Shown piece by piece: positions 10,924 to 12,501 of a stretch of DNA of 64,000 bases; within the stretch, counting starts at the first letter, position 1, and each line of letters begins with the position of its first letter. The stretch covers positions 3,100,001 to 3,164,000 of the forward strand of contig NZ_CP082322.1 in assembly GCF_019884725.1 (NCBI RefSeq), in the 5' to 3' direction. The notes below the pieces were generated by a model. That model did not search any database. It was not told the DNA's origin and saw only the letters and a list, made by a program, of their open reading frames with translations. The DNA comes from Leucobacter tenebrionis. GTDB lineage: Bacteria; Actinomycetota; Actinomycetes; Actinomycetales; Microbacteriaceae. A program made the translations under genes and the position numbers.

Positions 10924-11283
10924 CGCGGGCCGGTCCGCTGGCCGCTGGCCGCTGGCCGTTGTCCCGATGGCCGATGGCCCGACGGCCGCCGGCCTGCCCT
11001 CCGGCCGGGCTCCGGATGCCGTCGTCCCGACGGCCGCCGGCCTGCTGGCCCGCCGGGCTCCGGCTGCCTGTCTCCTCTGACGAAACCGCGCCGTTGTAGA
11101 CCTCCTGCACAGTTGTAGACCTCTCATCCCGTAGGAGAGGTCTACAACGGTGCAGCAGGTCTACGGCTGTCAGACCGTCAGAGGTTCGCCCACAGGCGCG
11201 GCTTCGGGGGTGAGCGCGCTGAGTTGTCCACAGATCATCACGGAGGCGGCTCACTGCCCGCAGACATCGGCGAGGCTCGTCGC
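10924..11283. repeat. Intergenic repeat region: 48-base duplication and nested hairpins
   Basis: No gene is visible in this 360-base stretch. The left half is low-complexity GC sequence in which CCCGACGGCCGCCGGCCTGC occurs at 10978-10997 and again at 11026-11045, with similar bases after each copy. This makes a 48-base imperfect tandem duplication. The right half holds the nested hairpins annotated separately (11090-11167). The remainder, to 11283, leads into the nuclease-fold gene and shows no clear ribosome-binding site. Confidence 0.7.
11090..11167. repeat. Nested hairpins carrying the motif GAGGTCTACAAC (left flank)
   Basis: The inner stem is 14 perfect base pairs: 11112-11125 (GTTGTAGACCTCTC) with 11135-11148, and a 9-base loop. 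The outer stem pairs 11090-11110 with about 11150-11167 (GTGCAGCAGGTCTACGGC), with one mismatch and a 3-base bulge. Thus four copies of the AGGTCTAC core lie here, two on each strand. The same motif forms the hairpin and tandem units at 12400-12501. Confidence 0.85.
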
Positions 11284-12387
11284 ATGGACCTCGACCAGAA
11301 ACGCCGAGTCGAATTCGCCGACTCGCTCGCCCTGGCGCGGCAGAGCGTCGTGAGCACGCGCGATCTTCATCGTGCCGGGATGACCGGACGAGCGATCGCG
11401 GCGGCAGTGCGAAGCGGGAGCCTGACGAGGCTGCGCACCGGATGGTTCGTGCCGGCCAGTGCGTGGGACGCCGTGAAGCCTGACGCCCGTCACCTCACCG
11501 CCGTAGTTGCGGCGCAGCGGGTGGCCCCATCCCGGATCGTGTTCTCGCACCGCTCGGCCGCGACGCTGCATCGGTTGCCCGTCTGGTCTCGCTGGCTGGC
11601 AGACGAACCGGGACCCGAGGATGAGCGCTGGCTCTCGGAGACCCGGGTCGTGCACACGACCGGGGAGTCTGGCGCCAGACGGGTCCCCGAGCCGTCACGC
11701 GTGCGCCACAGGGAGAGCTTGTCCGCCGCCGACGTCGTTCGAGTCGACGGCTTCGCATGTACTTCGATCGAGCGGACGCTCTTCGACATCGCACGCTCCG
11801 AACCCTTCCCGATCGCGCTCGCATGCATCGATGAGGCACTGCGTCGAGAGGTGAGCCGCGGGAGGCTGGTGGATCGCGAGCGCTGGGCGGCCTGGCGCGA
11901 GCGCATGCTCGGACGTGCGCGTGCCTACGCGGGGCGACCGGGCGCACGAGCGGTCAGAGCGCTCGCGCTGCTCGCCGATCCCAGGGCGGATTCGCCGCTC
12001 GAGAGCGGAAGCCGCCTGCGATTCCTGCAGTGCGGAATCGAGGTGGAGCTGCAGCACGAGGTGTTCGGAGCCGACGGCCGTCGGTATCACCTCGACTTCT
12101 GGCTCAAGCGCCAGAACCTTTTCGGCGAGTGTGACGGAAAGATCAAGTACGTCGACGTCGAACTGCTGAACGGCAGAAGCGCGGACGACGTGTTCTTCGC
12201 CGAGAAGCTGCGGCAGGACGCCGTAAGCGGTGCCATCATGATGCGGGGCGTGCGGTGGGCCGCGAGACACGTCGTGACCGGCGCTCGATTCGCGGCTCAC
12301 CTGCGATCGCTCGGCGTCGAGGTTCCGGGCCGTGCCACCCGGGTATTCGGCGCCGACGTGGCAGGGTTCCTGGATGCGTTGCCGTGA
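11284..12387 (+). CDS. AbiEi-like N-terminal domain plus PD-(D/E)XK-type nuclease-fold protein
   Basis: The 367-residue protein starts at ATG 11284. Residues about 10-65 form a winged-helix region of the AbiEi antitoxin type (STRDLHRAGMTGRAIAAAVR, then SGSLTRLRTGWFVP), and FSHRSAATLHRLP follows. The C-terminal third contains YHLDFWLKRQNLFGECDGKI and then KY. The spaced D ... E-x-D-G-K is the active-site pattern of DUF559/Vsr-like PD-(D/E)XK nucleases. Proteins with this pairing are widespread in Actinobacteria but not characterised. No AbiEii-type toxin is adjacent. The gene stands alone between two hairpin clusters that share a motif. Confidence 0.75.
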   Translation: MDLDQKRRVEFADSLALARQSVVSTRDLHRAGMTGRAIAAAVRSGSLTRLRTGWFVPASAWDAVKPDARHLTAVVAAQRVAPSRIVFSHRSAATLHRLPVWSRWLADEPGPEDERWLSETRVVHTTGESGARRVPEPSRVRHRESLSAADVVRVDGFACTSIERTLFDIARSEPFPIALACIDEALRREVSRGRLVDRERWAAWRERMLGRARAYAGRPGARAVRALALLADPRADSPLESGSRLRFLQCGIEVELQHEVFGADGRRYHLDFWLKRQNLFGECDGKIKYVDVELLNGRSADDVFFAEKLRQDAVSGAIMMRGVRWAARHVVTGARFAAHLRSLGVEVPGRATRVFGADVAGFLDALP

Positions 12388-12399
12388 CAGCAGCGGCCA

Positions 12400-12501
12400 T
12401 TGCAGACCTCACGCACCGCTGCAGTGCCGCCGCACGGTGCGTGAGGTCTACAACGGTGCGAGAGGTCTACGACGGTGCGGAGGACTGCAGTGGTGCGGAA
12501 G
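12400..12501. repeat. Hairpin plus 19-base tandem units carrying GAGGTCTACAAC (right flank)
   Basis: Bases 12400-12418 (TTGCAGACCTCACGCACCG) pair with 12435-12453 with one mismatch. From 12436 the unit GGTGCGnGAGGTCTACnAC repeats: 12436-12454, 12455-12473, a decayed copy at 12474-12491, and the start of another at 12492. The array begins 12 bases after the stop of the nuclease-fold gene and could also act as its terminator. Confidence 0.85.

Follow-up and report, generated by a model that had tools for sequence, protein, structure and literature searches.

The closest described precedent for the locus analysed here is the RAYT/REP system, in which a resident gene is accompanied by private palindromes that spread (PMC3116915, PMC8266576). 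A second precedent concerns DNA recognition: Rv2827c and AbiEi bind several inverted repeats at their own promoters (PMC7319586).

The window, the whole stretch of DNA analysed, comprises 64,000 nucleotides (bases 3100001-3164000) of the 3.38-Mb single-contig genome of Leucobacter tenebrionis. One of its genes combines an AbiEi-type winged helix with a putative nuclease domain and lies between two palindromic elements of one family. We favour, with a probability of roughly 0.6, a gene-palindrome partnership like that of RAYT and REP but with an unrelated enzyme: the nuclease would drive the processing or spread of the elements. The pairing of this protein class with dispersed palindromes matches no known system and is therefore new, while its working logic is paralleled by RAYT/REP; in the open-access literature, subscription journals lying outside the search, no earlier description of such a pairing was found.

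The window gene and its predicted product

A sequence-only reading of the window had attributed to this gene an AbiEi-like winged helix and a PD-(D/E)XK-type active-site pattern, and both were recovered.

11284..12387, + strand: gene for the AbiEi-type winged-helix (wHTH)/PD-(D/E)XK-like protein, 367 aa, stop codon included
11323..11472, + strand: winged-helix DNA-binding domain, residues ~14-63, from Pfam AbiEi_4 (residues 14-51) and a fold match
11989..12213, + strand: putative PD-(D/E)XK-like nuclease core, residues ~236-310, with E240, D271, E282, D284 and K288

The winged helix was recognised as that of type IV AbiE by three routes: Pfam AbiEi_4 (E 2e-5, its score of 24.9 falling just under the curated cut-off of 25), PADLOC AbiEi (E 1.7e-10) and fold comparison, in which the AbiEi antitoxin 6y8q was the top match (Z 5.9, rmsd 7.2, 157 residues aligned). 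In this part the structural model has a pLDDT of 82-92 across residues 11-60.

The LDF...GECDGK pattern is present, and the tail of the protein carries a conserved E...D...ExDG...K. E240, D271, D284 and K288 are invariant among 30 genus homologues and E282 is kept in at least 90% of them; the catalytic-like residues also persist at equivalent positions of the phylum homologues. Their order, E240-D271-E282-D284-K288, is that expected of a PD-(D/E)XK nuclease, and low-confidence models show an alpha-beta-beta-beta-beta-alpha order of secondary structure. Overall the models were poor (pLDDT 65, and 55 for a nuclease-only model), and their low quality makes uninformative the Foldseek searches, which listed no convincing nuclease with either one. 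A profile search of the window protein against solved structures gave no match, and the protein itself had no significant match to DUF559 or REase_MTES_1575, the profiles that its distant homologues matched weakly. The residue pattern and these weak profile matches suggest a PD-(D/E)XK-like nuclease fold for the C-terminal domain.

The protein is under purifying selection, with dN/dS values of 0.15 and 0.20 on homologue pairs, and its closest named homologue is from Leucobacter soli. When 30 members from the genus and 30 from the phylum were scanned with Pfam, the matches were to AbiEi models, one RovC_DNA-bd and one MTES_1575, with no transposase domain among them. As judged by reading translations only, the gene is preceded by an FAD-monooxygenase-like gene and a small ORF and followed, on the opposite strand, by a TPP-enzyme-like gene, with no AbiEii nucleotidyltransferase toxin gene adjoining it.

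Palindromes around the gene and through its genome

The sequence-only reading had described two repeat clusters framing the gene and sharing one core, nested hairpins on the left and a hairpin plus 19-base tandem units on the right. This description held in each part.

11088..11173, no strand: left palindromic element, 19-bp unit spacing and 13-bp centre; units 11088-11104 (-), 11107-11123 (-), 11137-11153 (+) and, degenerate, ~11156-11172 (+); -32.6 kcal/mol as single-stranded DNA, fold z -9.0 against shuffles
12394..12497, no strand: right element of the same family; units 12394-12410 (-), degenerate partner ~12413-12429, then + units 12443-12459, 12462-12478 and 12480-12496; fold z -2.9

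The palindromes, of ~85 bp each, align at 70% across 81 bp, and the + units starting at 12443, 12462 and 12480 stand beside the right hairpin in steps of 19 and 18 bp. An extra unit in one arm is seen both here (window 12443-12496) and at two further loci, L025 and L017, as if tandem gain of units were possible. Just upstream of the left element, at 10970-11065, lies a two-copy GC-rich 48-bp tandem repeat.

The shared sequence is common in its own genome, beyond what chance would give. The sequence GAGGTCTACNACGG occurs 18 times, as against 0 for a reversed control, and the 17-mer with up to three mismatches gives 97 matches against 0, a minority of the three-mismatch matches being isolated in coding sequence. 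The palindrome family numbers 26 copies, most of which repeat one layout of two units per arm, 19-bp spacing and a 13-bp centre. In their inner arms, matching is higher within copies (0.85) than between them (0.81; permutation p < 0.001); the same comparison detected no covariation in the outer arms. With genes around the copies called by a simple codon-usage scorer, every one of the 26 is intergenic, and 15 have convergent neighbours; for comparison, 3 of the 20 intergenic gaps of at least 90 bp in the window are convergent.

Twenty-four of the 26 copies adjoin unrelated genes. The sequence-only reading had named the occurrence of the motif beside unrelated genes as grounds for giving up its proposal, and taken literally that is what was found; yet this is expected of a REP-like system: it is the gene family that the repeats follow, whatever genes adjoin them.

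These data bear directly on autoregulation, in which the protein would be an AbiEi-like repressor, the palindromes its operators, and something else the agent that spread the sequence through the genome. In its favour, the region upstream of the Rv2827c gene holds four 23-bp inverted repeats to which Rv2827c binds (PMC7319586), the upstream palindromes of the window gene sit in the promoter region, and AbiEi is the best fold match of the protein. However, equal palindromes stand downstream of the gene, 15 of the 26 copies have convergent genes on either side, an arrangement in which a promoter would not be expected, and the repeats are multi-copy genome-wide and track the gene; the nuclease-like domain of the protein is, moreover, conserved, and beside its gene no AbiEii toxin gene was seen in the translations read. 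We consider autoregulation alone, one of the two main rivals to the favoured reading, unlikely. An operator regulon for other genes was rejected as the main account because the copies mostly lie between convergent genes. A known RNA family was also rejected, the only matches being sub-threshold hairpins, mainly of microRNA families, which we take as spurious.

Homologues, their palindromes and the spread of copies

A homologue is present in 45 of 54 genomes of the genus, with start codons assigned by script. In most of them palindromes lie in the flanks, the sequence of which differs from gene to gene, own-genome paralogues included; homologues elsewhere in the phylum also have palindromes beside them, on both sides as a rule, with a different sequence in each lineage. 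The sequence-only reading had suggested searching related genomes for the window's unit and asking whether copies cluster around homologues, and its core idea came through that check, in the form of flanking palindromes that are lineage-specific. A pattern search found the own palindrome in none of the 53 other genomes of the genus.

In 15 of the 32 genus homologues, and in 21 of the 29 from the phylum, the two flanks have a repeat in common that exceeds the left/right sharing of every one of 122 other own-genome genes, the 122-gene control being taken from the own genome only and a separate mismatched-flank control also being run; about half of the genus homologues do not pass. A palindrome scoring at least 14 lies near 23 of 33 genus and 24 of 29 phylum homologues, as against 8% of control positions. 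A lack of hairpins beside homologues would have told against the sequence-only reading; the flanks instead carry lineage-specific palindromes, with not every homologue passing these tests, and its suggestion that a gene of this class travels with hairpins of its own, as REP-associated transposases do, gains support and extends across the phylum.

Elements measure ~60-90 bp, and in many families the units are spaced at ~19 bp. Of 41 palindromes with a direct repeat, 30 have a period of 19 bp and 37 have one of 18-20 bp; families from more distant small genomes (f40 and its like) mostly lack this spacing. Two paralogues in the own genome, at G000:C1:2089260-2090306 and 720311-721327, each have an unrelated flanking palindrome family of their own, one with at least about 16 loci and the other with at least about five. 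In several species groups, including the window locus with L039, L041 and L056, the gene neighbours are conserved but the repeats differ. Across all pairs, protein and repeat similarity are not correlated (Mantel p 0.23), and clear repeat sharing is limited to pairs of more than 50% protein identity.

Dispersal was followed in three genome searches with concatenated palindromes of 8, 12 and 10 families (30 further families), in which copy counts, being drawn from BLAST lists, are lower bounds. Nearly every family is multi-copy only in genomes that carry its cognate gene. Apart from one exception, which stays within a genus, every match listed at E < 1e-3 fell in a genome that has either the cognate gene or a close orthologue of it; six genomes without the cognate gene gave only weak matches to the families searched. 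One family is common to G051 and G012, the genes of which are 81% identical, and the G141 family has one listed match in G173, of the same genus. The family of the second own paralogue (L015) also occurs in G023 and G006, where it flanks their homologues. Copy number per family ranges from 2 to tens, and two of the 30 families (G027 and G047) gave matches only beside the gene. As in REP/RAYT systems, cognate extragenic palindromes are dispersed in the genome and flank the gene. The protein had no tblastn matches in plasmids or phages, and no relative was confirmed in viral contigs.

Many relatives have the orthologous gene pair but not the element, so copies have been gained within lineages. 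For two elements of G369, the neighbouring genes are paired in the same way in 8 and 7 relatives, where the short gap between them contains no element. Of five loci examined for own elements, four (L002, L020, L023 and L024) have orthologous gaps that lack them in up to five relatives; at the fifth (L025) the alignment was not clear. One genome per species was compared. Neither a target-site duplication nor an exact insertion point could be read: junctions at the own loci are too diverged, the G369 gaps are short and diverged, and the G152 genus has no close enough relative. Around most G152 copies the bases are AT-rich, and CAAG/CTTG-like bases lie beside many G369 copies (both in the L113-L118, L120-L130 set), each a hint of a preferred insertion context or a longer element. 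Directly beside an element shared with G023, G006 has ~680 bp of extra sequence (L162 about 835-1514 against L154).

Ordinary terminator-like hairpins, present near the gene by chance, would suit the mostly 3' position of the copies relative to genes. That reading is very improbable given families that each have a specific sequence, from 5 to 26 or more copies and a four-unit, 19-bp architecture, elements missing from relatives' orthologous gaps, and systematic placement on both sides of one gene family; as a sole account it was rejected, being contradicted by the family searches that tie multi-copy repeats to the cognate gene.

A further motif lies between the left element and the start codon.

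11224..11232, + strand: DnaA-box-like motif TTGTCCACA

The upstream region contains TCCACAG in 24 of the 33 genus homologues, compared with 0.8% of random windows, and a DnaA-box-like TT(A/G)TCCACA stands ~55-60 bp before the start codon in most of them, more weakly beyond the genus. The protein might use the palindromes as chromosomal landmarks in a site system that serves the host (for example in replication-linked repair, self-marking or defence), with their spread a by-product. The motif before most genus homologues, purifying selection together with a fixed chromosomal position, and the relation of AbiEi to phage defence speak for such a role. Copy numbers from 2 to tens speak against it, as does the turnover of solo sites: in the L015 family G023 and G006 share three, and none of those fetched is shared with the window genome (G000). 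We regard the host-serving account, the other main rival, as quite improbable.

A model for the proposed partnership and its place among known systems

In the favoured REP/RAYT-like partnership, the winged helix would recognise its private palindrome through the units spaced at ~19 bp, two in each arm and four in all; such recognition is plausible because AbiEi proteins bind inverted-repeat sets at their own promoters. The C-terminal PD-(D/E)XK-like nuclease would then nick or cut the DNA within or close to the element, a step that would probably take place while replication leaves the element extruded or single-stranded. The cut would lead to the short element being copied or moved to intergenic positions, for the most part 3' of genes. 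The gene, with a copy on each side, would be the single resident source and would usually keep its chromosomal position through inheritance; the dispersed copies would be non-autonomous, and protein and repeat would change together as lineages diverge. The data show the flanking palindromes, their gene-specific sequence, their dispersal and lineage-specific gain, as well as conserved residues resembling an active site and purifying selection on the protein. Binding, cleavage and mobilisation by the protein are what we infer; the sequence-only reading had allowed that the gene might process, spread or be regulated by the repeats, and the first two of these roles are the ones the model would assign to it. 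A broader formulation, to which we give even odds, is that of a phylum-wide class of elements, selfish or domesticated, whose private palindromes are mobilised by a PD-(D/E)XK nuclease that an AbiEi-type winged helix guides; REP-like repeats would then have an origin independent of HUH transposases, and the process would possibly be timed by DnaA.

Should the favoured reading be right, dispersed palindromes of the REP kind would have originated on at least two occasions, with enzymes unrelated to each other, and many actinobacterial genes that match AbiEi models and lack a toxin would have dispersed DNA elements as their partners. The many natural protein/repeat pairs, of divergent specificity and with one 19-bp architecture in most Actinomycetes families, would offer a ready system for the co-change of a DNA-binding protein and its sites, and for asking whether a restriction-type nuclease can mobilise elements.

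The DUF559 and REase_MTES_1575 families have a similar order of acidic and lysine residues, and distant homologues of the window protein match them weakly; to our knowledge, no palindromes have been described for those families. MITEs and their parent transposons offer another likeness, in short non-autonomous palindromic copies and a full copy consisting of the gene between two of them, but here no target-site duplication was seen at the diverged junctions, no transposase domain was found, and each family has one gene copy. With AbiEi antitoxins and Rv2827c the window protein shares an N-terminal winged helix, of a kind for which binding to several inverted repeats is known (PMC7319586); it differs in its additional nuclease-like C-terminal domain, in repeats on both sides of the gene and genome-wide, and, from type IV AbiE, in having no adjacent AbiEii toxin seen in one operon.

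The nearest likeness is to REP/REPIN-RAYT (TnpA-REP) systems, in short, extragenic, gene-specific palindromes that are dispersed and flank a largely in-place gene, and in the co-evolution of repeat and protein (PMC3116915, PMC8266576). The elements differ from REPs in their length of ~60-90 bp and, in many families, in units spaced at ~19 bp. GTAG is found within the own unit; read by eye, the other families seem to have no common GTAG or CGTC tag at the foot of the palindrome. RAYTs belong to the HUH superfamily and are related to IS200/IS605, whereas the window protein combines a winged helix with a PD-(D/E)XK-like domain and has no such match. Membership in the RAYT family therefore fails on the defining enzyme, while the working logic fits.
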